Source of the DNA: Oscillospiraceae bacterium
GTDB lineage: Bacteria; Bacillota; Clostridia; Oscillospirales; Ruminococcaceae
Assembly: GCA_015067175.1 (NCBI GenBank)
Contig: SVMX01000005.1
Location: 124,001-188,000 of the forward strand
Direction of reading: 5' to 3'
Length of the DNA: 64,000 bases
Notes under the pieces: generated by a model
What the model saw: only the letters and a program-made list of their open reading frames with translations
Database searches by the model: none
What the model was told of the DNA's origin: nothing
Shown here: positions 16,229 through 31,494 of the stretch, piece by piece
How the letters are laid out: every line of letters starts with the position of its first letter
Position numbering within the stretch: position 1 is the first letter of the stretch
Position numbers and translations under genes: made by a program

Positions 16229-16258
16229 TATATAAATAATTTTATGGAGGAAAATAAT

Positions 16259-16951
16259 ATGAAGAAGATTTTATCTCTTGGCGTAGCTGCTGCTATCGCT
16301 TCTATGACAGCTGTTGCTGCTTCTGCTGCTTTCCAGCCCGAGCTTATCGATGGCGATTACACTGAGGGCAGCACAGTAACATTCGAAATCAAGGCATACG
16401 AAGTTGACAAGGCTAACTTCAAGGCAACAATCGAGACCGCTGGTCTTGAGCTCGTTGAAGCTGATGTTGAAGGCATGGGCGACATCCAGGATGGCGTTCT
16501 CGTTTGGGTTGACGGCGCTGCTCCCGAGGATGGCGACGTTATCGCTACTCTCACATACAACGTAACTGCAGCTGCAGGTGAGAAGGTTTCTCTCGCTCTT
16601 ACTCCCGCTGAGGGCTATGAGGGCTACGTTGATGCTACTCTGAACATCGAGGCTGACGTTATCGAAGCTACAACAGGCGGCGATGAGGGCGGCGAGGATC
16701 TCGGCGGCGATGAAGGCGGCGAGGATCTCGGCGGCGACGAAGGCGGCGACATCATCGACGGTGGCGACGAAGGCAACACTGGCGACGAGGGCAACACTGG
16801 CGACGAAGGTACTGCTGGTGACGATGCAGGCTCCACAGAGGGCGGCGACGATGAGAACAAGGCTGAGAACCCTGACACAGGTATCGCTCTTGCAGTTGTT
16901 CCCGCAGTTCTCGCAGGTGCTGCTATCGTAGTTTCCAAGAAGAGAAAGTAA
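16259..16951 (+). CDS. Cohesin-like surface protein with NPDTG cell-wall anchor
   Basis: A 230-residue protein: signal peptide 1-23, one beta-sandwich domain (about 24-138), an acidic Gly/Glu/Asp/Thr linker with short tandem repeats (about 139-200), then NPDTG (204-208), a hydrophobic span and a KKRK end. The domain has the strand order and sequence feel of a cohesin: EGSTVTFEIKA near its start, GLELVEADVEG in the middle, and DGDVIATLTYNVTAAAGE near its end, where cohesins carry a G-FATI-F-V pattern. A single wall-anchored cohesin would resemble ScaE-type anchors. The cohesin call is inference. The ATG at 16259 follows GGAGG; the upstream ATG at 16244 overlaps that site. It follows the dockerin gene by 86 bases. 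Confidence 0.65.
   Translation: MKKILSLGVAAAIASMTAVAASAAFQPELIDGDYTEGSTVTFEIKAYEVDKANFKATIETAGLELVEADVEGMGDIQDGVLVWVDGAAPEDGDVIATLTYNVTAAAGEKVSLALTPAEGYEGYVDATLNIEADVIEATTGGDEGGEDLGGDEGGEDLGGDEGGDIIDGGDEGNTGDEGNTGDEGTAGDDAGSTEGGDDENKAENPDTGIALAVVPAVLAGAAIVVSKKRK
16676..16830 (+). repeat. In-gene tandem repeats encoding the acidic linker
   Basis: Two copies of a 27-base unit encoding GGDEGGEDL are followed by two copies of an 18-base unit encoding EGNTGD. Such repeats vary in copy number easily and would change linker length. Confidence 0.7.
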
Positions 16952-16985: not shown

Positions 16986-17016
16986 ATGACCTCCCCGAAA
17001 GGGGAGGTTTTTGTTT
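16986..17016 (+). terminator. Rho-independent terminator after the cohesin-like gene
   Basis: The stem CCTCCCC-GAAA-GGGGAGG is followed by TTTTTG. The rest of the gap to 17253 is AT-rich with no gene seen. Confidence 0.88.
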
Positions 17017-17253: not shown

Positions 17254-17282
17254 TTGACATCAAGGTATAAATTTGATATAAT
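17254..17282 (+). promoter_or_regulatory. Consensus sigma-A promoter of the 17-31 kb transport cluster
   Basis: A full-consensus -35 TTGACA (17254-17259), 17-base spacer and -10 TATAAT (17277-17282), 75 bases before the first ATPase gene. No other equally good promoter was found inside the cluster by eye. Confidence 0.85.
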
Positions 17283-17357
17283 TATTACGGTATATATGAT
17301 AGCGGTGTTGTGCCCTGTGCAGATCATCGCCGCTTTTGTGCGGACGAAAGGATCGTT

Positions 17358-18083
17358 ATGGACTATATTTTAGAAGCAAAAAACGTCTGCATGGACTTTC
17401 ATATCGGCGACGGCAGTGTTGTCCATGCACTAAAAGGCATCAACCTGCAGATACAGCCGAATAAGCTGTCGGTGCTGCGCGGCCGTTCAGGTTCGGGCAA
17501 GACGACACTTATTAATATACTCGGTGCGTTGGACAGACCAACTTCGGGAGAGGTTTCTTTCCTCACTCGTGATAACGATATCACAAAGCTTCCCGATTCT
17601 GCGAGGGATAAGCTGCGACGCTGTGATATGGCGTTTGTGTTCCAGTCTGTTGCGCTGATTTCGACAATGACGGCTTTTGAGAACGTTGAGTTTGCGCTGA
17701 GGCTGAAAAAAATGCCTTATCGGGAGCGCGCTCAGCGAGCTAAACAAGCTCTCATACAGGTGGGACTTGAAAAGCGTATGCACCATCGCCCGGGCGAGAT
17801 GTCGGGTGGTGAGCAGCAGCGTGTTGCGATTGCAAGAGCGATTGCGACCTCACCAAAAATAATCTTCGCTGACGAGCCTACGGCAGAGCTTGACTCGCCA
17901 ACGGGCTTTGCGGTGATGAAGCTGTTCCGCGAGCTTGTAAAGGATAACGACCTTACAATAGTGATGACGACACATGATACGTCGATGATGGAGGTTGCTG
18001 ATATCGTTTACACACTGGAAGATGGAGTTATAAGCGACATTACCGAGAATAATGTGACGGATACGGAGGGTTCAGATGCCTAA
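17358..18083 (+). CDS. ABC transporter ATP-binding protein (LolD/MacB size)
   Basis: A 241-residue stand-alone ABC ATPase. Walker A is GRSGSGKTT, the Q-loop lies in VFQSVAL, the signature is MSGGEQQRVAIARA, Walker B is IIFADEPTAELD and the H-loop His is in TTHDTSM. The length and motifs fit the LolD/MacB/FtsE group, and there is no C-terminal regulatory domain as in MalK-type sugar ATPases. No FtsX/MacB-type permease is in this window; the next membrane partners are MalF/MalG-type. The ATG at 17358 follows GAAAGGAT; an earlier in-frame ATG lies in the leader without a ribosome binding site. It overlaps the next ATPase gene by 8 bases. Confidence 0.9.
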   Translation: MDYILEAKNVCMDFHIGDGSVVHALKGINLQIQPNKLSVLRGRSGSGKTTLINILGALDRPTSGEVSFLTRDNDITKLPDSARDKLRRCDMAFVFQSVALISTMTAFENVEFALRLKKMPYRERAQRAKQALIQVGLEKRMHHRPGEMSGGEQQRVAIARAIATSPKIIFADEPTAELDSPTGFAVMKLFRELVKDNDLTIVMTTHDTSMMEVADIVYTLEDGVISDITENNVTDTEGSDA

Positions 18084-18987
18084 AAAAGTCATGCTGGCGC
18101 CGCCCGAAAACGTCATGGTTCAGGCGGACAATCTTGTTAAGATATACAAATCCTCCGATGTAGAGGTCATGGCACTTCAGGGGCTTGACCTTACGGTGGA
18201 GCGCGGCGAGCTTATGGGCATCGTCGGCGCAAGCGGCAGCGGTAAATCTACACTGCTAAATATGCTCGGCGGACTTGACCGTCCCTCCGCAGGCAGCCTT
18301 TTCGTTGACGGAAAGGATATGCTGAAATTCACCGAGAAGGATTTTATCGACTACAAAAGAAAAACGGTTGGGTTTGTGTGGCAGAATAATGCGCGCAACC
18401 TTATTCCGTATTTAACGGCTCAGCAAAACGTTGAGATGCCGCTGCTGCTCTCGGGTTTTTCGGGAAGGCGGCAGAGAGCCTCCGAGCTGCTTGATATGGT
18501 GGGATTGTCTCACCGAAAAAACAGCAGGCTTGATCAGATGTCAGGTGGTGAACAGCAGAGAGTTGCGATAGCAATTGCGCTTTCCAACAATCCGAAGCTG
18601 CTTCTTGCCGACGAGCCGACAGGCTCAGTTGATACAGCCACAGCAAAGCTCATTCTCGATGTTTTTCGCGAACTCAACAAGGTCATGGGCGTTACCATTA
18701 TAATAGTAACGCATGATACAAAGCTTTCAGCTCAGATCGACAGAGTTGTTGCGATACGCGACGGCAAAACATCGTCCGAGCTTGTGCGTAAATCCTCTGT
18801 GATGAAGTCATTCGGACAGCTCACCGAGGAAGCAGCCGACGCAGGTCATGAGGAGCTGTCAGTCCTCGACCGTGCAGGTCGTCTGCAGATCCCAAAAGAA
18901 TATCTCGAAGAGCTTGGGCTCAAAGGCGGCGATAAGGTCCGCGTTGAGCTTGAGGACGGACGGATATGTATTTATCCTCGTTTGTGA
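18076..18987 (+). CDS. ABC transporter ATP-binding protein with AbrB-like C-terminal tail
   Basis: A 303-residue ABC ATPase. The core (about 15-235) has Walker A GASGSGKST, signature MSGGEQQRVAIAIA and Walker B LLLADEPTGSVD. After it comes a ~60-residue tail whose last part, LDRAGRLQIPKEYLEELGL followed by a KVRVELEDGRICIYP strand run, has the form of an AbrB/MazE swapped-hairpin domain. Such domains usually bind DNA or dimerise; here it may mediate ATPase pairing or regulation. It overlaps the first ATPase gene and is 81 bases before the solute-binding protein gene, which suggests the two ATPases act as a heterodimer. Confidence 0.85.
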   Translation: MPKKVMLAPPENVMVQADNLVKIYKSSDVEVMALQGLDLTVERGELMGIVGASGSGKSTLLNMLGGLDRPSAGSLFVDGKDMLKFTEKDFIDYKRKTVGFVWQNNARNLIPYLTAQQNVEMPLLLSGFSGRRQRASELLDMVGLSHRKNSRLDQMSGGEQQRVAIAIALSNNPKLLLADEPTGSVDTATAKLILDVFRELNKVMGVTIIIVTHDTKLSAQIDRVVAIRDGKTSSELVRKSSVMKSFGQLTEEAADAGHEELSVLDRAGRLQIPKEYLEELGLKGGDKVRVELEDGRICIYPRL

Positions 18988-19002
18988 GGAACAAATTTGT
19001 GA

Positions 19003-19028
19003 TCCATCGGGTGGGAGAAGCCCGATTG
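19003..19028 (+). promoter_or_regulatory. Small intercistronic hairpin
   Basis: The inverted repeat CATCGGG / CCCGATTG lies between the second ATPase gene and the solute-binding protein gene. It lacks a T-run. Confidence 0.35.
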
Positions 19029-19068
19029 TGATATGCTGCAATACAGTCTAGGAAAGGTGGAAAATACT

Positions 19069-22008
19069 GTGGCAAAAAACCATACCACGAAGCTGAAGAA
19101 ATTTACATCATTGTTTTTGTCTGCAATGATGGTTGCTTCCTCTTTTCAGCTTCAGATGACTATCGGAGCGTCTGCTGAGGAAGAGCAGAACACTACCTTA
19201 GCATCATCTTCGGTCAGCGCTGAAAATGTAGGCATGACCAGCAGAGAAAGCGCTTATAAGAACTACATAGCAAAGTACGCTGACGCGGAAAAGCCCATGG
19301 AGGAAATAGTTGTAGACATTCTCAACTATGAGGCCTCCGACGGTGCGGTTACCGAAGTGGTAAACCACGAGGGCAAGGAGAACTGCGTTTCATGGCTTGA
19401 CAGCGAGGGTACCATCACTTGGTCCTTTAATGTCAAAAAGGCAGGTCTTTACAACCTTGAGATGCTTTACTATCCCGTGGCAAGCACCAATACGACCGTT
19501 GAGGTTTCGCTTCGCATAGACGGCGAAAACCCCTTTGACGAGGTAAAGCTTGTTGAGCTTGATCGTTATTGGCACAGTGAAACAGCCATCGGATATGACG
19601 CAAGACAGAAAAACCAGAAGCGTCCTCCTCAGGTGGAGTACGACTGCTGGGTGACATATCCCATTAAGGATAAGGACGGTCTTATCAATACACCGTACTT
19701 CTTCTACCTTTCCGAGGGTGAACATACAATTTCCCTTGATGGCGTTAAGACAAATATCTACATGAACGGTATGCGCTTCTTCAATACTGAGGAGCTTCCG
19801 TCCTATGCAGACATAGCGCCCACTCAGGATCAGATCAACAACACTCCCGCAAGCACAGCAGGAACAGCTATCCTGTTCGAGGCGGAGTCTCCTCTGTACA
19901 CGTCTTCCTCTACGTTGTACCCCACTTATGACAGAACAGATTATAATGTAAGCCCCTCTCACCCTGTAAACAAGCGTTACAACACGCTTGGTACAGATAC
20001 TTGGGATCAGGCTACTCAGTCGGTTTGCTGGGAATTTGAGGTTCCCGCCGACGGATACTACACCATCAGAATGAAGGCTCGTCAAAGCACCATGCGTGGT
20101 TTCTTCTCCAACAGACGAGTTTACATCAACGGCGTGGTTCCCTGCAAGGAGCTTGACTGCATAAAGGTTAAGTATGATCCCAACTGGCAGACAGTTGAGC
20201 TTTGCGACGCAGACGGCAATCCCATCTACGTTGAACTTAAGGCAGGCAAGAACCAGATCATGCTTGAAGCTATCCCCGGCGATATCGGTCAGGTTATGCA
20301 GCGCCTTGATGACCTTATTTTCGAGCTTAACTACTACTATAGACGTATTCTGATGATCACAGGTCCTTCTCCCGACGAATACAACGACTACTATCTCGAC
20401 GACCAGATCCCCGAGCTGCTCGATGTATTCCAGAACGCTATCGATACTCTCTATGCTGAAAAGAAGGGTATTGAAGAGCTGACAGGTGAAGGCTCTGAGG
20501 CATCTACACTTCAGACAATGGCTGTTATTCTCCAGATGGCTGTTGATGAGCCCGATGATATCCCCATGATGCTCTCCAGTATTAAGGATCAGATATCAGC
20601 AGTTTCTGCTTGGATGCGTGACTATCGCGACCAGCCCCTCGAGCTCGACTATATCGAGGTTAAATCCGTACATGATCAGTATAAGGACGCAAGCTCCAAT
20701 TTCTTCTCTTCCTTTGCGTTCGGCTTCCAGGCATTTATAGGCTCCTTCTTTGAGGACTACACATCTATTTCCGATTCCACGACACAGGCGCTCAATGTTT
20801 GGGTATCCCTCGGTCGTGACCAGGCTACTGTTGTAAACGAGCTTGTAAGCTCCGAGTACAACCCCAACCACTCCACACAGATCGCGATCAGCCTTGTACA
20901 GGGCGCTGTGCTTGAGGCAACTCTCGCAGGCAAGGGTCCTGAGGTTGCACTGTTCATCGGCGGCGACTTCCCTGTAGTTTGTGCTTCCAGAGGTCTGCTC
21001 GTTAATATGAAGGGCTTCACCGACTATGATGAAGTAGTTTCCAGATTCAGCGAGGACGTTACAACGCTGTATGAATTCAACGATGGCGTTTACGGTATCC
21101 CGCTGACACAGAACTTCCCGATGCTGTTCTATCGTACCGACGTTCTTGAAGAACTCGGCTATGACGCTCCTCCCGAGTCTTGGGACGCACTTATCGAAAT
21201 GCTCCCCGACCTGCAGAGAAAGTACCTTGAGGTAGGTCTTATTCTTCCCTCCAATGTATCCTCTCAGGTATTTGATGCCGGTAACACATTCGTTCTTCTT
21301 ATGAACCAGACCGGTCAGAGCTTCTACACAGAGAATCAGCACGCAACAACATTTGACACAGAGGCTGCGGTCGATGCATTTACAAGATGGACTAAGTTCT
21401 ACACTGTATATGACTTTGACCAGACCTACGACGCATTTACAAGATTCAGAACAGGTGAGATGCCCATTCTGGTGCAGAACTACACCTTCTATAACCAGCT
21501 TAATGTAGCAGCTCCCGAAATAAAGGGTCTGTGGGATTTCACGCACGTTCCCGGCACATACAGAACTGACGAGAACGGAAAGACATTCCTCGATTACACC
21601 GCAAACTCCGGTTCTGCGGGTGCAGTTATCTTCCAGTCCTGCTCCGATAAGCAGGCCGCTTGGGACTTCATCAAGTGGTTCACCGAAACAGAAACACAGG
21701 TAGAGTATGGTAAGACCATTGAGGCTATCATGGGCCCGCTCGGTCGTTACGATACCGCAAACCTTGAAGCTCTTTCAAGACTCAACTGGTCTACAGCCGA
21801 GCACGCTAAGATAAGCGATCAGATGGCTCATCTGCAGGAGATACCGATCATTCCTGCTTCCTACGCTGTAACTCGTAACGTATACAACGCGTTCAGAGCG
21901 GTTGTAAACAACCAGAAGAACCCCAGATATGAGCTCAGCTCTTACAATAGAGATATCAACAATGAGATCGTAAGAAAGCTGAAGGAGCTTGGCTTCTACG
22001 AGGAGTGA
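19069..22008 (+). CDS. Large extracellular solute-binding protein with N-terminal carbohydrate-binding-like modules
   Basis: A 979-residue exported protein starting at a GTG preceded by GGAAAGGTGG; the earlier ATG at 19033 has no binding site. A signal peptide (about 10-38, ending near GASA) lacks a lipobox cysteine, so it is not an evident lipoprotein. Two sandwich-like modules follow: about 50-245 (with LDSEGTITWSFNV and YLSEGEHTISLDGVK) and about 265-430 (ILFEAESPLY, GYYTIRMKARQ), the latter like CBM6/35-type domains. A helical stretch (about 440-550) leads to a family 1 solute-binding domain (about 575-960; LVNMKGFTDYDE, YGIPLTQNFPMLFYRTDVL, AWDFIKWFTE). It should deliver oligosaccharides to the permeases just downstream; the sugar is unknown. 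Confidence 0.85.
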   Translation: MAKNHTTKLKKFTSLFLSAMMVASSFQLQMTIGASAEEEQNTTLASSSVSAENVGMTSRESAYKNYIAKYADAEKPMEEIVVDILNYEASDGAVTEVVNHEGKENCVSWLDSEGTITWSFNVKKAGLYNLEMLYYPVASTNTTVEVSLRIDGENPFDEVKLVELDRYWHSETAIGYDARQKNQKRPPQVEYDCWVTYPIKDKDGLINTPYFFYLSEGEHTISLDGVKTNIYMNGMRFFNTEELPSYADIAPTQDQINNTPASTAGTAILFEAESPLYTSSSTLYPTYDRTDYNVSPSHPVNKRYNTLGTDTWDQATQSVCWEFEVPADGYYTIRMKARQSTMRGFFSNRRVYINGVVPCKELDCIKVKYDPNWQTVELCDADGNPIYVELKAGKNQIMLEAIPGDIGQVMQRLDDLIFELNYYYRRILMITGPSPDEYNDYYLDDQIPELLDVFQNAIDTLYAEKKGIEELTGEGSEASTLQTMAVILQMAVDEPDDIPMMLSSIKDQISAVSAWMRDYRDQPLELDYIEVKSVHDQYKDASSNFFSSFAFGFQAFIGSFFEDYTSISDSTTQALNVWVSLGRDQATVVNELVSSEYNPNHSTQIAISLVQGAVLEATLAGKGPEVALFIGGDFPVVCASRGLLVNMKGFTDYDEVVSRFSEDVTTLYEFNDGVYGIPLTQNFPMLFYRTDVLEELGYDAPPESWDALIEMLPDLQRKYLEVGLILPSNVSSQVFDAGNTFVLLMNQTGQSFYTENQHATTFDTEAAVDAFTRWTKFYTVYDFDQTYDAFTRFRTGEMPILVQNYTFYNQLNVAAPEIKGLWDFTHVPGTYRTDENGKTFLDYTANSGSAGAVIFQSCSDKQAAWDFIKWFTETETQVEYGKTIEAIMGPLGRYDTANLEALSRLNWSTAEHAKISDQMAHLQEIPIIPASYAVTRNVYNAFRAVVNNQKNPRYELSSYNRDINNEIVRKLKELGFYEE

Positions 22009-22010
22009 TA

Positions 22011-22048
22011 GCTTTTCCGGATAATTCCGGAAGAGCAGGCGCTCTTTT
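22011..22048 (+). promoter_or_regulatory. Overlapping alternative hairpins between binding protein and permease
   Basis: Stem 1, GCTTTTCCGG / CCGGAAGAGC (22011-22036), and stem 2, AAGAGC / GCTCTT followed by TTCAAT (22030-22046), share the same AAGAGC bases, so only one can form. Stem 2 resembles a weak terminator. This would favour more binding protein than permease mRNA. Confidence 0.5.
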
Positions 22049-22072
22049 CAATAAAAATTAGGAGGAATCAGT

Positions 22073-23011
22073 TTGTTCGGTAAAGAAAAAACGCAGTATA
22101 TCGAAGACAGTAAATTTCGCTATACGATGCGTGAAATGAAAAAGAACGGCAGTGCTTACATACTGGCGCTTCCGTACTTCCTGCTGTTCCTGGTATTCAC
22201 GGGTATTCCTGTTCTTATCTCCCTGCCTATCGGCTTCACCAGCTTCAACATGGTGCAGTTCCCTACATGGGTGGGTCTGAATAACTTCTATACTCTGTTC
22301 CTCGGGGACGACGTTTTCCTTATTGCTATCCAGAATACCTTGGTATTCGCTATCATCACAGGTCCTGTGAGCTATATTCTCTGCTTCCTGCTCGCATGGC
22401 TTATCAACGAGATGCCCGGTGCGCTTAAAACTGTATTTACATACATCTTCTACGCACCCACACTGGCAGGTAACATCTTCGCAACCTGGCAGCTCATCTT
22501 CTCGGGCGATACCTACGGCTTCCTTAACTCCACACTGATGGATCTCGGTCTTATCAAGGGTCCTCAGCAGTGGCTGACAGACGCAAGATATATCCTCATG
22601 TGCGTTATCGTCGTACAGATGTGGATGTCCCTCGGTGCAGGCTTCCTGTCGCTTCGTGCGGGCTTCCAGGGTATTGATAAATCCGGCTACGAGGCAGGCG
22701 CTATCGAGGGTATCAAAAACCGCTGGCAGGAACTGCTTTACATTACGATCCCCAGCATGGGTCCGCAGCTTCTGTTTGCGGCTGTAATGCAGATCACAGC
22801 TTCCTTTACGGCAGGCGACATCGGACGTTCGCTTACCGCATTCCCCTCTACAGACTACGCAGCGCACACGATCATGACTCACGCATTTGACTATGGTTCC
22901 ATAAGATATGAGATGGGTTATGCCTGCGCGATCTGCTTCCTGCTGTTCCTGATCATGATGCTCGTAAACAACGTAATACGCAAGGCTATGAGCGGAATTT
23001 TGGATACTTAA
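22073..23011 (+). CDS. Sugar ABC transporter permease, MalF/UgpA type (first pair)
   Basis: A 312-residue protein with six membrane segments. The conserved cytoplasmic EAA loop reads EAGAIEGIKNRWQELL followed by ITIPSMGP (about residues 205-230), the site where the ATPase docks. It starts at a TTG preceded by AGGAGGA; no better ATG exists nearby. It is followed 12 bases later by the MalG-type partner. In this cluster the ATPases available are not MalK-type, so which ATPase powers it is an open question. Confidence 0.92.
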   Translation: MFGKEKTQYIEDSKFRYTMREMKKNGSAYILALPYFLLFLVFTGIPVLISLPIGFTSFNMVQFPTWVGLNNFYTLFLGDDVFLIAIQNTLVFAIITGPVSYILCFLLAWLINEMPGALKTVFTYIFYAPTLAGNIFATWQLIFSGDTYGFLNSTLMDLGLIKGPQQWLTDARYILMCVIVVQMWMSLGAGFLSLRAGFQGIDKSGYEAGAIEGIKNRWQELLYITIPSMGPQLLFAAVMQITASFTAGDIGRSLTAFPSTDYAAHTIMTHAFDYGSIRYEMGYACAICFLLFLIMMLVNNVIRKAMSGILDT

Positions 23012-23023
23012 GGAGGACAGAAT

Positions 23024-23884
23024 ATGCGTATTATACAAAGAAGAAAAAGGTGGGGAGGCTCACGCGGAGGCGATATCGCGATCTTTATCGTGCTGTGCCT
23101 TATCGGCGTGTTCATGCTCTTCCCGATTTACCTGTCTGTTATCCAGTCGATAAAGCCCGTTGAGGAACTGTTCGTGTTCCCTCCGAAGCTTTATGTACAG
23201 CGTCCCACCTCGCAGAACTTTGAGGATATGCTCAAGGTTGCAGGTAGCTTGGACGTTCCCTTCTCCAGATATGTATTCAACTCCATATTCGTATCTGTTG
23301 TTGTAACAGTTGCACAGCTCTTCCTTTCCTCCTCCGCAGCTTATGTACTTTCCAAGGTTAAGGCTCCCGGCGTTAAGGCAATGAACAAGGTCATTGAGAT
23401 CGCGCTGCTGTTTACATCTTCCGTTACATACATCGTACAGTATATCGTAATGGCAACGCTTGGTATGATCGACACATACTGGGCAATCACGCTGCCGTAT
23501 ATCGCAACTCCGATGGGTCTGTTCCTCATGAAGCAGTTCATGGGTCAGATACCCGAGAGTATGATAGAAGCGGCAAAGCTTGACGGCGCAAGCCACATGA
23601 GAGTCTGCTGGCAGATAGTAATGCCCAACGTTAAGCCTGCTTGGCTGACGCTGATGATATTCGCTTTCCAGGGCGCTTGGCAGATCACAGGTTATCTCTT
23701 CGTTTATAGCGAGCAGTTAAAGCCTATACCGATCGTTATGCAGCAGATCGCTGCAGCCGGTATCGCCAGAACAGGCGTTTCTTCGGCAACGGTAGTTGTG
23801 CTGATGCTCCCCCCGATGATATTGTTCCTTATCCTGCAATCCAACGTTGTTGAAACGATGGCTCACTCAGGTCTTAAGGATTGA
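23024..23884 (+). CDS. Carbohydrate ABC transporter permease, MalG type (first pair)
   Basis: A 286-residue protein with six predicted membrane segments. The EAA loop reads MIEAAKLDGASHMRVCW followed by VMPNVKP (about 180-205), the canonical form. The start follows AAGGAGGACAG. It pairs with the MalF-type gene just upstream to form the membrane channel of a CUT1-type importer. Confidence 0.93.
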   Translation: MRIIQRRKRWGGSRGGDIAIFIVLCLIGVFMLFPIYLSVIQSIKPVEELFVFPPKLYVQRPTSQNFEDMLKVAGSLDVPFSRYVFNSIFVSVVVTVAQLFLSSSAAYVLSKVKAPGVKAMNKVIEIALLFTSSVTYIVQYIVMATLGMIDTYWAITLPYIATPMGLFLMKQFMGQIPESMIEAAKLDGASHMRVCWQIVMPNVKPAWLTLMIFAFQGAWQITGYLFVYSEQLKPIPIVMQQIAAAGIARTGVSSATVVVLMLPPMILFLILQSNVVETMAHSGLKD

Positions 23885-23913
23885 TGAAATAATTAACGAA
23901 AGGATGATTTTGA

Positions 23914-25545
23914 GTGCCATCAATTAAGCGCATCGCAGCCCGTGCTGCGGCTGCGGTAATGGCTGCTGTTATGCTCGGCACCTGCGTTGCTTACGCAGAT
24001 GAGCCGTACGACGGCTACAACTACGACTGGTGGGAAGATCCGGTTCCTTCTCAGAACGGTTATGTTGTTGACAAGGTCATTACCGGTGCCGATATTGGCA
24101 TTGGCTCATTGAACGAGCCGTCCGATATGTTCATTTCGGACAGCGAGGAAATATATATCGCAGACACTGCGTACAAGAGTACGCTTACCCCTAACTTAAA
24201 GGGTAGAATCGTTATCACCGACAAGAACTTTAAGCTCAAGACCTCCGTTGAGTATCTGGACTTCTCCGATGTTCAGGATTGGGTCAACATGAAGAAGGAA
24301 GAGCTTGCTGAGAATGTTGCTGAGTACCAGAAGTGTACCGACCTCTACTTCGATGGTCCTACAGGTGTATTTGTAGATAACGATGATGTTGTTTATGTTG
24401 CAGATACCGCAAACGACCGCGTTGTTGCTTTTTCTGTAGAAGTTGACGACAGCGGCATCGGCTACGGCAAGGTTATCAGAGTATTCACAAGACCTGATTC
24501 CGATGTCTACGACGCAAAAACAACATTCAATCCCAGCAAGGTGCTGGTAGACGCGGCAGGTAACGTTTATATCTGTATCAAGTCTATCACAAAGGGTGCC
24601 GTTGTGTTCTCTAAGGACGGCGAGTTCAACGGTTATTTCGGTGCAAACCGAGTTGAGGCTACCGCTGATGTTCTTATGAACGCTTTCTGGAAGCTTATCT
24701 TCACACGTGAGCAGGTTAAGAAGATGCAGCGCAGCGTTCCTGTCGAGATATCTAACTTTGATATCGACGAGGACAACTTCATCTATACAGTAACCGAGTC
24801 CAAGACTGTTGAAACAGACGTTATCAAAAAGCTTAACTCCGCAGGTACAAATATCTTTATCAATCTCGGCTATTCCGATTACACATTCGGTGACGCGCTG
24901 ACAAAGTATTACCGCGGCCAGACATACTCCTCACAGATCACTGACGTTGATATCGGCGAGGGTGGAACCATCAACCTGCTTGACCTTAAGACAGGCCGTG
25001 TGTTCCAGTATGATAATGAGTGTAATCTGCTCTTTATCTTCGGTGGCAAGGGCTCGCAGAAGGGTACATTTACAACAGTAAATGCTGTTGAGAGCCTTGG
25101 CACAAAGGTATACGTTCTTGATGGACGTAAGGCAAGCGTAACTGTATTCAGACAGACTGAGTTCGGTGACCTCGTTCATGAGGCTATCACGCTGTTCAAC
25201 AGCGGTAAGTACGAAGAAGCTCGCGGACCTTGGCAGGAAGTACTCAGACGTGACTCCAACTACTGGCTGGCTTACATCGGTCTGGGTAACGCTTACCTCA
25301 ACGAGGGCGACTTCGAAACAGCTATGGAGTATTTCCTTTATAACTCCAGAAGCGGATATAATGACGCTTTCAAGGGCTGGCGAATGAACTTTATCAGAGA
25401 TAACTTCACAGTTATCGCTATCATAATCGTTGGTTCGCTTGTTCTCGTTTATGTAGTTGCTTCTCTCAGAGGCAAAGCAAAGGCAAAGAAGCGCGCTGAG
25501 GCAGAACGTCTGTTCAAGGCGCAGAATAAGGGAAGGGAGGACTAA
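23914..25545 (+). CDS. Membrane-anchored NHL-repeat protein with TPR
   Basis: A 543-residue protein starting at GTG after GAAAGGAT. A signal peptide (1-28, ending AYA) is followed by a beta-propeller-like region (about 45-400) with NHL motifs such as EPSDMFISDSEEIYIADTA and VYVADTANDRVVAF, then a TPR-type helix pair (about 415-470; YEEARGPWQEVLRRD, YWLAYIGLGNAYLNEGDFETA), one membrane segment at 498-519 and a basic cytoplasmic tail. The propeller and TPR would face outward. Its position between the permeases and the YIP1 gene suggests an accessory or assembly part of the transport complex; this is inference. Confidence 0.82.
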   Translation: MPSIKRIAARAAAAVMAAVMLGTCVAYADEPYDGYNYDWWEDPVPSQNGYVVDKVITGADIGIGSLNEPSDMFISDSEEIYIADTAYKSTLTPNLKGRIVITDKNFKLKTSVEYLDFSDVQDWVNMKKEELAENVAEYQKCTDLYFDGPTGVFVDNDDVVYVADTANDRVVAFSVEVDDSGIGYGKVIRVFTRPDSDVYDAKTTFNPSKVLVDAAGNVYICIKSITKGAVVFSKDGEFNGYFGANRVEATADVLMNAFWKLIFTREQVKKMQRSVPVEISNFDIDEDNFIYTVTESKTVETDVIKKLNSAGTNIFINLGYSDYTFGDALTKYYRGQTYSSQITDVDIGEGGTINLLDLKTGRVFQYDNECNLLFIFGGKGSQKGTFTTVNAVESLGTKVYVLDGRKASVTVFRQTEFGDLVHEAITLFNSGKYEEARGPWQEVLRRDSNYWLAYIGLGNAYLNEGDFETAMEYFLYNSRSGYNDAFKGWRMNFIRDNFTVIAIIIVGSLVLVYVVASLRGKAKAKKRAEAERLFKAQNKGRED

Positions 25546-25548
25546 ACG

Positions 25549-26313
25549 ATGAGATTTAATCTCGATATGCCAAAATGGAAATGGCCGTTTTACATCATGG
25601 TCCACCCTTTCGAGGGCTTTGAAGATCTCAGATGGAAGAAAGCCTACAGCATGAGAGTGGCATTGGTCATCGTTGCACTGTTCTTTATCGTGAGCGTGTG
25701 CGAACAGCTGATGACAGGCTTCCTCTTCAACCGCAACTATGTAAAGATATTCAACATTGTTCCTATCATTGTTCAGACGCTGGTAGTATTCTTTACATGG
25801 GTAATAGGCAACTGGGCATTGTGTACACTGTTCGATGGTGAAGGTACCATGAAAAACATCTGCGTTAATACCGCATATGCACTGGTTCCCATGCTCATCG
25901 GCAAGGTCATCAACATAATCCTCAGTAACTGCCTGCAAAACTCAGAATCTGCATTTATCGTGTTCGTATCGTATCTCACGATATTGTGGACGGCGATATT
26001 GCTGATATCGGGCATGAGAACGGTTCACCAGTATTCAATACCCAAAACCCTTCTGTTTATGCTGATCACGATCTTCGCAATGGTCGTTATCATCATACTG
26101 CTCGTACTTCTCGTTTCCCTTTTCCAGCAGGTATATGTATTTGTTTACTCTATCTACACAGAGCTGCTTTACAGATTCTCAAGTCTGGAGCCGACAACGC
26201 TGGTACTCATCATGATAGGCGCTGTCGTTCTGGTTGCTGCTATCGTCATCACAGCTTACACGCTGTATGAAAAGCACCAGCTCAAGAAGGAAATGAAAAA
26301 GCTTAAATCTTGA
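25549..26313 (+). CDS. YIP1 family integral membrane protein
   Basis: A 254-residue protein with an N-terminal cytoplasmic start (FYIMVHPFEGFEDLRWKK, the usual opening of bacterial YIP1 proteins) and about five membrane segments, including one long run around residues 155-200, then a Lys-rich end. Bacterial YIP1 proteins have no settled role. The gene starts 3 bases after the NHL/TPR gene stop, so the two are translationally linked and likely act together in the membrane. Confidence 0.85.
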   Translation: MRFNLDMPKWKWPFYIMVHPFEGFEDLRWKKAYSMRVALVIVALFFIVSVCEQLMTGFLFNRNYVKIFNIVPIIVQTLVVFFTWVIGNWALCTLFDGEGTMKNICVNTAYALVPMLIGKVINIILSNCLQNSESAFIVFVSYLTILWTAILLISGMRTVHQYSIPKTLLFMLITIFAMVVIIILLVLLVSLFQQVYVFVYSIYTELLYRFSSLEPTTLVLIMIGAVVLVAAIVITAYTLYEKHQLKKEMKKLKS

Positions 26314-26361
26314 TTGAACAGTAACTGATTAGGTTTTAATATTGAAAATGGTGGTGTAAAA

Positions 26362-28728
26362 ATGCTTCAATTACGCAAGAAAATACTTGCCGGCGTACTT
26401 TGCTCAGCAATGGTGCTTTCGGCAAGCCAGAGCGTTGCATGGTCGGAAACCATAGAGTCTTCCGTTGAAGCTGAAACTGACAGTTCTTCTGAAACAACAG
26501 AGTCTGCAGATGGCGCCGCAACCGAGGAGGACGCACAGGGAACCCAGCAGGTTGCTCCTGTGACCGAGGAACAGGCGCTTGCAGAGTGTCAGCTTTATGC
26601 AGAAAGCTCCACGCACGCACTTTATGTAAATGAGAGCACAGGCGTATTTGCTGTTAAGGATAAAAATACCGGCTACTGCTGGTGGAGCAATCCTTATAAC
26701 GCTGATTCCGATCCTGTTGCCAGAGGTACAAACCTTGCAGGACTTAAATCCGCGCTTTGCATCGAGGGCAGAAAGGTCCTCGATACCGAGCACAGCAAGA
26801 CCGACCTCAAATCATATGCAGAGTCCGTTGAAAAGGGCGGATTCAAGATTGAAAAGATTGAAAATGGCTTCAAGGGAACACTCGAGTTTGCAACAGCAGG
26901 ACTTACTATTCCCTACTGTGTAACCCTTGTTGATGATTACTTTGAGATCTCGGTTCCTGTCAATGAGATAGTTGAACGCGAGCTTCTCGGTGATACTGCG
27001 GAAACTATCCGCTCTATCATCATAATGAGTTTGTTCAAGGATCTCGGCGCAGGCAGCTCCGAGGAGGAAGGTTATATCATTACTCCCGACGGCTCGGGTG
27101 CTGTTATAAACTTCAATAACGGAAAGACCAATGCTTCCGAGTACACACAGAGAATTTATGGCAGAGATGTCGCAATAAGCTCCGATCTTGCTCCCGCAAA
27201 GACAGAGCAGGCATATCTCCCGATCATTGGTATCGTTAAGGAGGATAACGCTCTTCTCGCCGTTGTTACAGAGGGTGAGGCTTATGCTACCGCAAGAGCA
27301 AGCATAAGCGGTCAGGGCGCGACCGGATACAACTCCGCGTGGTTTGATTTCAATATGCGTTCTTATGACTCCTACTATATGGGTCAGAGCAACGCCGCTC
27401 TTAATGCATACGAAGAGCAGATGATCCCCGAGGAAAAGATATCCGTACGTTACTATCCTATCGCTAAAGAGGGTGCGGACTACGTTGATGTAGCTCATCG
27501 CTACCAGAAACATCTCATTGACGAAGGTGTTCTTACTGACGGCAAGACCAAAGACGGTGATGTTCCTTTCTACCTCGATCTTTTCGGCGGCACTATCAAG
27601 CAGCAGTCGGTGCTTGGTTTCCCTGTTTCGCTTGAAACACCTGCTACCACATACGAGGAAGCTAAGGAGATCGTTGAAAAGCTGAACGCTTTAGGCATTG
27701 ACAACATGGTCATCACATACGAGGACTTCAATGCAGCAGGCATGACCAGCCGTATTTCGAGCTTTGTGGACTACTCCGGAACACTTGGCGGAAAGAACGC
27801 ATTCTGGAAGCTTGCAGACTACTGCAACAGCATCGGCGCTACTCTCGCAGGCAGTGTTGATATTCAGGAATTTGAGCGTTCCGGTAACGGATATTCCACA
27901 ACAAGCTCTTCTGTAATCCGTGTAACCAAGGCATACGCTACTCAGAACGAGTATGAGCGTGCGTTTGGTACTCCTCACGACACCAGAGAGAGCTGGTATA
28001 TCCTCACTCCCGCTTATTATGAAGAGGTAGTTCAGAAGGTAGTTGACAGTTATGTCAAGGAGGGTCTTACTTCGATCTCTCTTGAGCAGGCAACCAACAT
28101 GCTGTACAGCGACTTTACTGCTAACACTGTAAAGCACGCTTCCAGACAGCAGGCTGTCAAGAATCTTGAGGCTTGCTTCAGCATGATCGACGCAAGCGGT
28201 CTTACATTTGTGGCTGATGCCTGCAACGACTACGCACTGAAATATGTGGACTACATCAGAAATGTTCCGCTTTACAGCAGTAATTTTGATGTTTATGATT
28301 ACGATATCCCGTTCTACGAGATCGTTATCCACGGCTACATTCCCTATACAACAAAAGCAAAGAATGCAAGCTCCGGCGCTGACGAGATGTTCCTGCTCTC
28401 TGTAGCTACAGGTACTCCCGTACACTACGAGGTAATGCATGAGAATCCCAACGAGTTCACAGATTGCGCTTATGACACCCTGTTCTACGCTTATTACGAG
28501 GGTTGGCTTGATATAGCCGCAAATGAGTATAGACTTACTCAGGATCATCTCAAAGCACTTGCTGATGAAACTATTACCGATTTCGAGTATGTTACACAGG
28601 ATAATGTAAAGACCACCTTCTCTGACGGTACTGTTATTGAGGCTGATCTTGAAAACCTTACGCTCAAAATCAACGGCACAGAGGTAAAGCTTGCCGACTA
28701 TGGACTGAAAGGAGCGACAACTGACTGA
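26362..28728 (+). CDS. Secreted DUF5696 protein, glycosidase-like architecture
   Basis: A 788-residue protein with a signal peptide (about 1-28), an acidic Ser/Thr/Glu linker (about 30-65), an N-terminal beta-rich domain (about 70-365), a central region with alternating helix-strand order that reads like a TIM barrel (about 370-690; for example EEAKEIVEKLNALGIDNMVI and GLTFVADACNDY) and a C-terminal strand domain. This is the layout of DUF5696 proteins, which sit beside CUT1 permeases in Clostridia. The layout resembles retaining alpha-glycosidases, but I cannot name catalytic residues. The next gene overlaps by one base (TGATG). Confidence 0.8.
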   Translation: MLQLRKKILAGVLCSAMVLSASQSVAWSETIESSVEAETDSSSETTESADGAATEEDAQGTQQVAPVTEEQALAECQLYAESSTHALYVNESTGVFAVKDKNTGYCWWSNPYNADSDPVARGTNLAGLKSALCIEGRKVLDTEHSKTDLKSYAESVEKGGFKIEKIENGFKGTLEFATAGLTIPYCVTLVDDYFEISVPVNEIVERELLGDTAETIRSIIIMSLFKDLGAGSSEEEGYIITPDGSGAVINFNNGKTNASEYTQRIYGRDVAISSDLAPAKTEQAYLPIIGIVKEDNALLAVVTEGEAYATARASISGQGATGYNSAWFDFNMRSYDSYYMGQSNAALNAYEEQMIPEEKISVRYYPIAKEGADYVDVAHRYQKHLIDEGVLTDGKTKDGDVPFYLDLFGGTIKQQSVLGFPVSLETPATTYEEAKEIVEKLNALGIDNMVITYEDFNAAGMTSRISSFVDYSGTLGGKNAFWKLADYCNSIGATLAGSVDIQEFERSGNGYSTTSSSVIRVTKAYATQNEYERAFGTPHDTRESWYILTPAYYEEVVQKVVDSYVKEGLTSISLEQATNMLYSDFTANTVKHASRQQAVKNLEACFSMIDASGLTFVADACNDYALKYVDYIRNVPLYSSNFDVYDYDIPFYEIVIHGYIPYTTKAKNASSGADEMFLLSVATGTPVHYEVMHENPNEFTDCAYDTLFYAYYEGWLDIAANEYRLTQDHLKALADETITDFEYVTQDNVKTTFSDGTVIEADLENLTLKINGTEVKLADYGLKGATTD

Positions 28729-29963
28729 TGAGTGACGAAAGAAATTTCGACCCCACAAATGCGGCTGAATTAAACGCAGCAGAAGAGGTTGTGGCAGCTC
28801 CCGCTCCTGCCGCTGAAGCTGCTCCCGCAGCCGAGGCAGTGGTTGAGCCTGCTCCTGCGGCTGAACAGAAAGCGGAAACCGCTCCTGTTGTTGAACAGGC
28901 TGCTGAGCCTGCTCCCGCTGCACCCGTTCGTGTATCGGCACACAATACTGCTGCCGCTGCTGCTTTAAATGCAGCAAATGACGAAGTTGATGTGCGCAGA
29001 ATTGGCGGTGCAAAAGCTCAGCGCAAGATAAAGACCTCTAAGATCTCTTATGAGAGAAAAAAGAGCCTTTACGGTTACGGCTTTATCGCTCTTTGGGCGA
29101 TCGGTACACTTTGGCTGTTCGTACTTCCTGTTATCACATCTCTGTGGTATTCGCTGTGCGATACGCAGCTTTTCGCTAAGGACGACGCACTGCTCCACGG
29201 TATGACCACAGCAGGTATCTATACCGAGTGGAACAGCTTTGGCAACTACATCAAAGCTTTCGCAGACAGCACAGAGTTTCTTCCCGCGCTGCTTGCATCG
29301 CTTGGCGATATCGGTCCTAAGACCATCGTTATTTTGATCTTCTCACTGTTTATCGCTGTTATTCTGAACCAGAAGTTCAGAGGAAGAACACTCGCTCGTT
29401 CGATCTTCTTCCTGCCTGTACTTATTGCAACAGGTCCCGTTATCAGCGTTATCAACGGTGATATGGCGTCACAGGGCGTTTCGGAGGCTTCGCAGTTCAG
29501 TACGCTGTTTAAGACAGACCTTGTTACAGAGCTTATGGAGTTCCTCGGAATCTACAACCTCAACCAGACGTTCACAGATGTTATCAAGGACATCACCAGT
29601 GACGTTCTGAACCTTGTATGGAACTCGGGTATCCAGATCCTGATATTCCTGTCGGCATTGCAGACTATCCCGCCATCTGCGAAAGAGGCTGCAAGCATGG
29701 AGGGTGCAACTTCATGGGAGTTCTTCTGGAAGATAACATTCCCCTACATAAGCCCGATGATCCTTTCCAACCTCGTTTATACTGTTATCGACGCGTTTGT
29801 ATCGACGGATAACCAGGTAATGGAATTTGTTCTTGAGCGTTCAAGACAGTGGGAATACGGCTATTCCGCGGCACTTGCATGGATATACTTCGCGATTATC
29901 GGTATATGTCTGGCATTGATCACGGTAATAGTAAACAGATTCGTATTCTATGAGAATGATTAA
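28728..29963 (+). CDS. Sugar ABC transporter permease, MalF type (second pair)
   Basis: A 411-residue permease. The first ~90 residues are an Ala/Pro/Glu-rich, presumably disordered cytoplasmic extension, absent from the first-pair permease; six membrane segments follow (about 115 onward). The EAA loop reads KEAASMEGATSWEFFW followed by ITFPYISP (about 320-345). It starts by a one-base overlap with the DUF5696 gene stop, so translation is coupled. Confidence 0.92.
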   Translation: MSDERNFDPTNAAELNAAEEVVAAPAPAAEAAPAAEAVVEPAPAAEQKAETAPVVEQAAEPAPAAPVRVSAHNTAAAAALNAANDEVDVRRIGGAKAQRKIKTSKISYERKKSLYGYGFIALWAIGTLWLFVLPVITSLWYSLCDTQLFAKDDALLHGMTTAGIYTEWNSFGNYIKAFADSTEFLPALLASLGDIGPKTIVILIFSLFIAVILNQKFRGRTLARSIFFLPVLIATGPVISVINGDMASQGVSEASQFSTLFKTDLVTELMEFLGIYNLNQTFTDVIKDITSDVLNLVWNSGIQILIFLSALQTIPPSAKEAASMEGATSWEFFWKITFPYISPMILSNLVYTVIDAFVSTDNQVMEFVLERSRQWEYGYSAALAWIYFAIIGICLALITVIVNRFVFYEND

Positions 29964-29976
29964 GGAGGTTAGAGAA

Positions 29977-31140
29977 GTGACAGAAAATAATTTTGTAGCT
30001 CCCAATGAGGAGAATGCTAATGTTGCTAATCAGCCTGCTGAAAATGTAACATCTGTTTCCGAGATGAACGACGCTGCTGCTGTCGTTGCTAATCCCATCG
30101 AAACAAAGAAGCCCAAGAAAAAGGAAAAGAAGAAAAAGGACGATTACCGCGTTACTAACTTTGATATTATCAAGAACTACCGCCACTATACCGCTAAGGA
30201 GAGAAAGCACTATCGCTACATCTTCTGGCGCAGAATTTCCGGTTATGTGTGGCCGTTCTTCAGATTTATCATCGTGTTCGGTCTTTCTTTCGTAATTCTG
30301 TATCCTATTCTTTACATGATCTCGACCTCCATTCGTCCTCAGTCTGAGATGAATGACCCCTCCGTAATGTGGATCCCCAAAACGATCCGCTTCGAGAACT
30401 TCGTTGAGATCTGGAATGCTATAGAGTATCCCAAGACATTGTGGCAGACGCTTGTTCTGAATATCGTATCTTCGATACTTCAGGTAGGAACCTGCGCACT
30501 TACAGGCTACGGCTTTGCACGTTTCAAGTTCAAGGGTAAGAATCTGCTGTTCGGTATAGTTCTGCTTCAGATCATCGTTCCTACACAGATCATTCTTATT
30601 CCTCAGTACATGCAGTTCCGTTACTTCGATATTTTCGGTCTGTTCAATGGTCTGCTTGGCGACTCCATCAGTCTTGTTGATACAAACTGGGCTATGTACA
30701 TACCTGCGTTCTTCTGTAACGGTATCCGTGCAGGTCTGTTCATTTATCTGTTCAGACAGTTCTTCAGAGGACTTCCCAAGGAGCTGGAGGACGCTGCGTA
30801 CCTCGACGGCTGCGGTCCGTTCAAGACCTTTGTCAGCGTAATGGTACCCAATGCGGCAAGCTCTTTCTTGACAGTATTTATCTTCTCCATCGTATGGTAC
30901 TGGAACGACTACTATGTATCCTCCATGTACTTCACGCAGGGCAACACCATATCCCTTAAGATCGACGGTATCGCAGCAAGTATCTCAATGTATCTGCATA
31001 ATGAGATCAGAAACGCTGCTGACTTCGTCGTTTGGATGGAGGCAGGCTGCTTGCTTGCAATTGCTCCTATCGTTATCATGTATGTGTTCTTGCAGAAGTA
31101 CTTTACAGAGGGTATCGAAAGAGCAGGTCTTGCTAACTAA
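29977..31140 (+). CDS. Carbohydrate ABC transporter permease, MalG type (second pair)
   Basis: A 387-residue permease starting at GTG, 7 bases after AAGGAGGT; an upstream in-frame ATG overlaps the preceding gene. The first ~85 residues form a charged extension with a Lys-rich patch (PKKKEKKKK) and the channel domain follows with six membrane segments. The EAA loop reads EDAAYLDGCGPFKTF followed by VMVPNAAS. It pairs with the preceding permease. This is the last gene of the cluster. Confidence 0.92.
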   Translation: MTENNFVAPNEENANVANQPAENVTSVSEMNDAAAVVANPIETKKPKKKEKKKKDDYRVTNFDIIKNYRHYTAKERKHYRYIFWRRISGYVWPFFRFIIVFGLSFVILYPILYMISTSIRPQSEMNDPSVMWIPKTIRFENFVEIWNAIEYPKTLWQTLVLNIVSSILQVGTCALTGYGFARFKFKGKNLLFGIVLLQIIVPTQIILIPQYMQFRYFDIFGLFNGLLGDSISLVDTNWAMYIPAFFCNGIRAGLFIYLFRQFFRGLPKELEDAAYLDGCGPFKTFVSVMVPNAASSFLTVFIFSIVWYWNDYYVSSMYFTQGNTISLKIDGIAASISMYLHNEIRNAADFVVWMEAGCLLAIAPIVIMYVFLQKYFTEGIERAGLAN

Positions 31141-31466: not shown

Positions 31467-31494
31467 ACAGCCTCCGTAAGGAGGCTGTTTTGTT
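31467..31494. repeat. Hairpin repeat, copy 2, terminator-like
   Basis: The same ACAGCCTCC-GTAA-GGAGGCTGT stem followed by TTTGTT, ending 25 bases before rnhA starts. Confidence 0.7.

Follow-up and report, generated by a model that had tools for sequence, protein, structure and literature searches.

To which transporter do two ATP-binding cassette (ABC) ATPases belong when their genes head an operon that otherwise encodes a giant binding protein and two complete permease pairs of the CUT1 sugar-importer family? The question is raised by the genome of a gut Clostridia member, an Oscillospiraceae bacterium (GCA_015067175.1; our genome G000, a 2.14 Mb assembly that is 84% complete), from which we analyzed a stretch of 64,000 nucleotides, henceforth the window (contig SVMX01000005.1, positions 124,001 to 188,000; G000 C14:124001-188000). 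Ten open reading frames (ORFs), all on the + strand between window positions 17358 and 31140, constitute the operon. A first-pass annotation of this DNA had read them as a single machine powered by two LolD-type ATPases. We arrive at a different reading, to which we assign a probability of about 0.85, namely an eight-gene uptake module preceded in the operon by two ATPase genes that belong to another ABC transporter, of MacAB-like type. The genes are labeled 1A and 2A (ATPases), 3S (binding protein), 4F/5G and 9F/10G (permeases), 6N (NHL/TPR), 7Y (Yip1) and 8D (DUF5696), and the eight genes 3S-4F-5G-6N-7Y-8D-9F-10G (window 19033-31140) are collectively termed the core. The features of the locus, with lengths in amino acids (aa), are:

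16988..17009, + strand: terminator-like stem-loop behind the upstream gene (sequence scan)
17254..17282, + strand: promoter TTGACA-17-TATAAT with TG, 12/12 match (sequence scan)
17358..18083, + strand: 1A, LolD/DevA-like ABC ATPase, 241 aa, most likely of the HlyD-FtsX transporter (NCBIfam, motifs, co-occurrence)
18076..18987, + strand: 2A, LolD/MacB-like ABC ATPase, 303 aa, with a C-terminal MazE/AbrB-type domain, most likely of the HlyD-FtsX transporter
19033..22008, + strand: 3S, 991 aa, signal-like N-terminus, C-terminal SBP_bac_8/1 domain (Pfam)
22073..23011, + strand: 4F, MalF/UgpA-type permease with EAA loop (weak NCBIfam and motif)
23024..23884, + strand: 5G, MalG/UgpE-type permease with EAA loop (Pfam/NCBIfam and motif)
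23914..25545, + strand: 6N, signal-like N-terminus, NHL repeat, TPR, one C-terminal hydrophobic segment (Pfam)
25549..26313, + strand: 7Y, Yip1-domain membrane protein, 6 hydrophobic segments (Pfam)
26362..28728, + strand: 8D, DUF5696 protein, signal-like N-terminus, remote GH129 relative (Pfam, profile search)
28728..29963, + strand: 9F, second MalF-type permease with EAA loop (Pfam/NCBIfam and motif)
29950..31140, + strand: 10G, second MalG-type permease with EAA loop (Pfam/NCBIfam and motif)
31467..31488, + strand: terminator-like stem-loop after the operon, 9 pairs (sequence scan)

The ATPase pair and its probable permease

Genome searches were conducted over 197 genomes of the family, with a limited number of candidates scored in each (11 for 2A and 4 for the FtsX permease). 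Proteins matching 2A at an E value of 1e-60 were recovered in 32 genomes, and a double FtsX permease in 36, including every one of those 32, with a single such permease gene in each genome. The four extra FtsX genomes also possess 2A, three of them as a gene of 55-58% identity (G030, G093 and G179; L237-L239) and one as a contig-end fragment before 3S (G071; L241), such that 2A accompanies the double permease in 36/36 genomes. Among 42 chosen genomes, the permease was detected in 32/32 with 2A and in 0/10 without it (eight DUF5696 carriers plus two members of the same genus).

In the 14 of the 36 FtsX genomes that lack DUF5696, the ATPase genes sit at the FtsX gene itself: 1A and 2A follow the gene for a protein of ~940-965 aa that contains two stretches of FtsX domain as well as two extended non-hydrophobic stretches, and this gene is in turn preceded by a HlyD-like ORF (by Pfam in two tested cases and by BLAST in the others). 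The first-pass annotation had itself singled out the occurrence of the ATPases elsewhere only with FtsX-type permeases as an observation that would speak against it, and this is in essence what these 14 genomes display. PF02687 matched in two stretches in all seven FtsX proteins tested, and HlyD_D23, HlyD_3 or Biotin_lipoyl_2 matched all six HlyD-like proteins tested, some below the cut-off; the HlyD-like protein of the window genome yielded an RND_mfp match below the cut-off, and the remaining ones were recognized by BLAST at 22-64% identity.

The other 22 FtsX genomes possess the core (21 by DUF5696, and G070 by 3S only), and in all of them the ATPase genes precede 3S. In 20 of these a HlyD-like gene lies just upstream of the FtsX gene, and a 1A/2A-like ATPase of at least 45% identity was not found in the fetched stretch; in the other two, G099 and G070, contig ends truncate the FtsX surroundings. 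In the window genome, the HlyD-FtsX genes (G000 C6:1869-5701, L207; FtsX gene C6:2912-5701) are unlinked to the operon. HlyD-FtsX directly follows 10G in G065, and a single gene lies between them in G044 and G148, which codes for a GH26-CBM35 protein by Pfam in the former and is a similar-sized ORF in the latter.

The core, for its part, frequently occurs without the ATPases. From 138 listed places we fetched 60 core loci, hand-picked for long contigs (40 from the family and 20 from the phylum), and 2A is included in 14 of them, all within the own-family set. In 40 of the 54 judgeable loci, 3S has at least 1.9 kb of upstream sequence without 2A; the remaining 6 were not judgeable. Based on these sequence-level associations, we consider it most likely that 1A and 2A belong to an exporter-type HlyD-FtsX transporter whose permease is encoded elsewhere in the genome.

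The two ATPases each possess the Walker A, signature, Walker B and H motifs. The best NCBIfam model is DevA for 1A and LolD for 2A, with scores that in either case fall well short of the curated cut-off, and Pfam found no OB_MalK or TOBE domain in either. The C-terminus of 2A displays a MazE/AbrB-type domain (PF04014, window 18871-18978, E 1.4e-7) that had been missed in the first reading, the domain naming of which was otherwise borne out by Pfam and NCBIfam. This domain was matched by Pfam in both 2A proteins tested, and by eye comparable sequence ends 31 of 32 relatives of 2A, in either gene context; the one relative without it is a shortened protein. The start of 1A, previously placed at 17310, is most likely the ATG at 17358.

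The operon encodes no MalK/UgpC-type ATPase, as had been correctly observed, but this absence is no oddity and was rejected as a sign of novelty: in Caldicellulosiruptor (Anaerocellum) bescii, MsmK was concluded from a deletion to be the shared ATPase of the CUT1 transporters (PMC8579813), and contig C13 of the window genome encodes an ATPase with OB_MalK and TOBE_2 domains that passes the UgpC cut-off (478 versus 432 bits). An OB_MalK ATPase is present in 60/63 genomes with DUF5696, as against 96/134 other family genomes, and in 20/22 genomes with 1A-2A in the operon, the two without it being 75% and 78% complete. In Paenibacillus cellulosilyticus, ugpC lies 37 nucleotides before the binding-protein gene of this very cluster, and in L065 a MalK-type gene is two genes upstream of 3S. 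In their MalF/MalG pairs with EAA loops, a substrate-binding protein and a UgpC-type ATPase elsewhere in the genome, the window proteins resemble CUT1 importers with a shared MsmX/MsmK/UgpC; they differ in having two permease pairs per operon, a binding protein of 991 aa, and partner proteins of the NHL/TPR-YIP1 and DUF5696 types.

The second transporter also has a counterpart in Gram-positive bacteria. Spr0693-0694-0695 of Streptococcus pneumoniae comprises an adaptor, an FtsX-type permease and a separate ATPase. The system described here resembles it as a MacAB-like pump in a Gram-positive (PMC5768738), and differs in its double FtsX permease of ~916-1049 aa, its two different ATPases, the MazE/AbrB domain on one of these, and the splitting off of the ATPase genes into a sugar-import operon.

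A proposed history of the split and rival explanations

In a tree of 2A, a branch with support 99/94 separates the 21 cluster-linked proteins from the 11 FtsX-linked ones; given this single branch, one transfer of the ATPase pair suffices. Mapping the presence of 1A-2A onto a tree of 4F and 5G from 54 clusters requires three changes, possibly one gain and two losses of the pair. A 16-member line without 1A-2A and G103, together 17 genomes, are all absent from the FtsX-positive list, and eight of the 17 were also part of the 42-genome test. If there was one gain followed by two losses, parts encoded at separate loci were lost together in these genomes while the core stayed. The arrangement with the ATPases in the importer operon has been kept in 14 genus labels. 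We posit that the split would best be explained by a single ancestral move of the ATPase pair into the importer operon.

These distributions bear on the original proposal that the LolD-like 1A and 2A are the dedicated motors of both CUT1 pairs. Membership in the same operon with close spacing, the presence of four EAA loops alongside two complete ATPases, and the apparently single entry of the ATPases into the operon in their own family, followed by their retention, are all in its favor. Against it stand the 40 judgeable core loci from which 2A is missing, the presence of the ATPase in every FtsX genome and of the FtsX permease in every genome with the ATPase at E 1e-60, the adjacency of the two where DUF5696 is absent, their joint disappearance in the losing lines in which the core persists, and the UgpC-type ATPase of the genome, which heads the same cluster in P. 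cellulosilyticus. This role for 1A-2A is extremely improbable, and the co-occurrence with FtsX and the core loci without 2A are the grounds on which we discarded it.

A related proposal, that 1A-2A serve FtsX along with one CUT1 pair (e.g. 9F/10G) and so couple import and export, would account for the location of the ATPase genes in the importer operon in 22/22 core genomes having them. It is nonetheless very unlikely, given that the same permease pairs are found in relatives without 1A-2A and that no ABC ATPase serving both fold classes is known to us.

Several points weigh against the partnership of 1A-2A with HlyD-FtsX, and against the wider reading of which it is part. With limited candidates scored per genome, weak relatives of 2A or FtsX may be missed, and the 2A genes of G030, G093 and G179 did escape the 2A list. 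In G030, the ORF caller gave 2A without 1A beside FtsX, with a frame bearing ATPase motifs in between; in G007, contig ends separate 1A from 2A; several HlyD-like ORFs precede FtsX in G066 and G007; and a 37%-identical 1A-like ATPase lies ~3.3 kb behind the FtsX gene of G035 (L224). Comparison of 2A to solved structures retrieved the two-domain ATPases Rv1281c and DppD first, followed by LolD and MacB. An OB_MalK ATPase was not found in 3/63 DUF5696 genomes (70, 75 and 93% complete). The counted genomes are related and hence not independent, one gain with two losses is one way to read the three changes on a single tree, co-occurrence and joint loss fall short of showing complex formation, and 1A-2A could serve both transporters.

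Acceptance of HlyD-FtsX as the partner of 1A-2A leaves the sub-question of whether the position of the ATPase genes reflects a functional connection. A founder rearrangement without any functional link between importer and exporter is compatible with our reading, and we regard it as possible, though not as the likelier answer: one origin is enough, and HlyD-FtsX is unlinked to the core in most core genomes seen, but in three genomes it lies just downstream of 10G, and the arrangement has survived in 14 genus labels. Our simplest guess is that common regulation keeps the ATPase pair with the importer.

The eight-gene core and its operon

DUF5696 (PF18952) is encoded by 63/197 genomes of the window's family and by 37/398 genomes of the phylum, two of which (the window genome and one more) are also in the family set. 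The order 3S-4F-5G-6N-7Y-8D-9F-10G was observed on one strand in 49/60 fetched loci; with 3 loci devoid of a separate 7Y and 2 with a split gene (L085 and L118), it is kept in 54/60, which supports a conserved unit of two CUT1 pairs, NHL, YIP1 and DUF5696 and rules out chance clustering. The core is rearranged in 5 loci (L108, L110, L114, L116 and L120), and L095 is cut. In L118, the 5G permease gene is split into two pieces ~1.6 kb apart. On the Butyrivibrio fibrisolvens plasmid pNP243, the eight core genes are preceded by a GH43 gene and a two-component system and followed by two further binding proteins. A phage or plasmid origin was considered and dismissed, as two collections gave two matches each, all of <60% identity; scans of viral contigs for DUF5696 yielded nothing useful. 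Two unannotated phage records from human feces ("Bacteriophage sp.", MT835600.1 and MT835587.1) contain DUF5696-like sequence of 27-29% identity, possibly bacterial contamination.

A contig scan with the window DUF5696 returned 8 close relatives, including a partial one. The named sequences nearest to this gene are from Oscillospiraceae and uncultured Clostridia metagenome-assembled genomes (58-75% identity), two of them from roe-deer colon. Among the close relatives L228-L233, 4F/5G are 91-97% identical to those of the window, as against 58-75% for DUF5696 and 72-81% for NHL, which indicates that the outer parts evolve much faster than the permeases.

The 3S protein is an extracellular family-1/8 binding protein (PF13416, E 2.4e-23; PF01547, E 1.6e-18) whose N-terminal part gave weak golvesin/CBM35 matches below the cut-off. 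All four permeases contain an EAA-type loop, and three match BPD_transp_1 in Pfam; 4F (22073-23011) had no Pfam match at E 0.01 and gave weak NCBIfam matches to PhnU2/GlcT/PotB/UgpA. 7Y contains a Yip1 domain (Pfam, E 5e-15), and 6N is predicted to be anchored by its C-terminus and to face outward. In 9/60 loci, a 6N of 672-835 aa without a separate 7Y represents an apparent NHL-YIP1 fusion, with NHL and Yip1 confirmed by Pfam in one protein in 3/3 cases tested (L117, L065 and L114); likewise, P. cellulosilyticus has a single fusion-sized gene named YIP1 between the permease and DUF5696. Such fusions support a joint function of 6N and 7Y.

All ten ORFs were confirmed in the order, common direction and tight packing that the first reading had reported. 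1A and 2A overlap by 8 nucleotides, the succeeding gaps measure 45, 64, 12, 29, 3 and 48 nucleotides, and the last two junctions overlap by 1 and 14 nucleotides; hence, no gap exceeds 64 nucleotides and three junctions overlap. The consensus sigma-70 promoter at 17254 was also verified as a 12/12 match. Perfect promoters number 5 in the window against 0.01 expected, and therefore the one at 17254 is real, yet not unique. Inside the operon, + strand scans found no promoter better than 10/12 and no terminator stem of more than 6 pairs before the 9-pair stem at 31467; its 19 promoter-like sites are no more than in shuffles. This arrangement suggests that the ten genes are co-transcribed.

Two genes upstream of the operon code for an 895-aa protein (window 13485-16172) with a signal-like start and what we take to be a dockerin-like end, and for a protein (window 16244-16951) with what is presumably an NPDTG sortase-type tail; neither had a match above the Pfam cut-off or in NCBIfam at 1e-8. 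A GH94-type phosphorylase gene (Pfam, window 34571-36964) lies 3.4 kb downstream, outside the operon, and would fit intracellular use of imported beta-glucosides.

Substrate, mechanism and significance

The 8D protein is a DUF5696 member (Pfam, E 4e-152), and our literature search found no paper on this family. A profile of 21 DUF5696 proteins matched, among solved structures, 5opq (3,6-anhydro-D-galactosidase, E 8.9e-13), which we take to be a member of glycoside hydrolase (GH) family GH129, 5wzn (GalNAcase, E 6.9e-7) and also 8rzg. The alignment takes in the N-terminal part and reaches into the beginning of the barrel region, stopping before the remainder of the barrel; the C-terminal part of 5wzn and 5opq is matched weakly. 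Of these, 5wzn is described as a GH129 enzyme (PMC8106489). We accordingly present DUF5696 as a remote GH129 relative on the strength of profile comparison. Two differences from GH129 count against a simple hydrolase reading: the window protein has no Pfam Glyco_hydro_129 (PF11308) match at E 0.01, matching DUF5696 only, and the column aligned with the Asp of the GH129 'DGW' motif is not conserved, holding 11 residue types in 21 rows (the Trp is kept in 18/21, and D584 in 19/21). Together these imply that DUF5696 may bind rather than cut. A scan of 199 phylum genomes with the Pfam GH129 model gave 0 matches, a result without evidential weight, as no control responded either.

As regards the neighborhood, the mechanically called flanking ORFs (129 from 28 loci) include 25 matching SBP_bac_1 and 10 matching LacI, and the core flanks also hold GH26, GH10, GH67, GH42 and GH30 (among the 25 families listed of 48 and 90). 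In the window's own family, three genes directly after the core were tested, of which two are GH95 and one is GH36.

The importer gene order is already in print for C. bescii, whose xylan degradation locus is given as xloEFG-X-GH129-axoFGE-xynF-xynE-xynD-xyn10A-xynX-xynB and is induced by xylan (PMC8579813, Rodionov et al. 2021). Like the window, it has CUT1 permeases without a local ATPase in the same printed order, this being a comparison of order and not of sequences. The C. bescii locus differs in that it lists a second binding-protein gene (axoE), with xyn genes behind it, and none for LolD-like ATPases; the window has separate genes for NHL and YIP1, and 1A-2A lead. No small binding-protein gene follows 10G in the window, a departure from C. 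bescii that tells against equating the two. L117, presumably a Caldicellulosiruptor genome, in which a binding protein follows 10G, reproduces the order xloEFG-X-GH129-axoFGE (again order and not sequences). By analogy of position, X of the C. bescii operon would be the NHL-YIP1 protein. The statement in the first-pass annotation that no such complex had been described thus gives way as regards gene order, and stands to the extent that the NHL/YIP1 position appears in print only as 'X'. Among the papers listed by our searches on YIP1, NHL and sugar transport, none is about this cluster, as judged by titles and the starts of abstracts.

The binding, trimming and import of a polymer, as first envisaged, fits the GH129-like relation, the adjoining GHs and sugar-binding proteins, and the published finding that xylan induces the C. 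bescii operon with this gene order. The core probably takes up plant-sugar chains (oligosaccharides). We propose that 3S would capture these outside the cell, that the GH129-like DUF5696 protein would bind or trim them at the cell surface, and that both CUT1 pairs would import them using a shared UgpC/MsmX-type ATPase, with the NHL/TPR-YIP1 pair as an outward-facing accessory or scaffold. 1A and 2A would be made with the importer and yet assemble with the unlinked HlyD-FtsX permease. A bolder proposal is that the eight core proteins form one surface supercomplex, with an NHL/TPR arm holding the GH129-like and binding proteins over the two CUT1 pairs, and that this is coupled to HlyD-FtsX, the ATPases having moved to place import and export under joint regulation as one unit; we consider this rather unlikely.

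Although its importer gene order is in print for C. bescii, the eight-gene unit is worth naming. A recurrent uptake locus of Bacillota holds two uncharacterized membrane parts and a protein family without known activity, and giving it a name opens these parts to testing in genetically tractable organisms such as C. bescii. The locus also offers a caution for operon-based annotation, in that the permease served by ATPase genes of a transporter operon can lie at another locus; it was whole-genome co-occurrence, rather than adjacency, that pointed to the split transporter. Its most promising part is the NHL-TPR-YIP1 protein together with the GH129-like DUF5696 protein, and the part likeliest to mislead annotators is the displaced ATPase pair.

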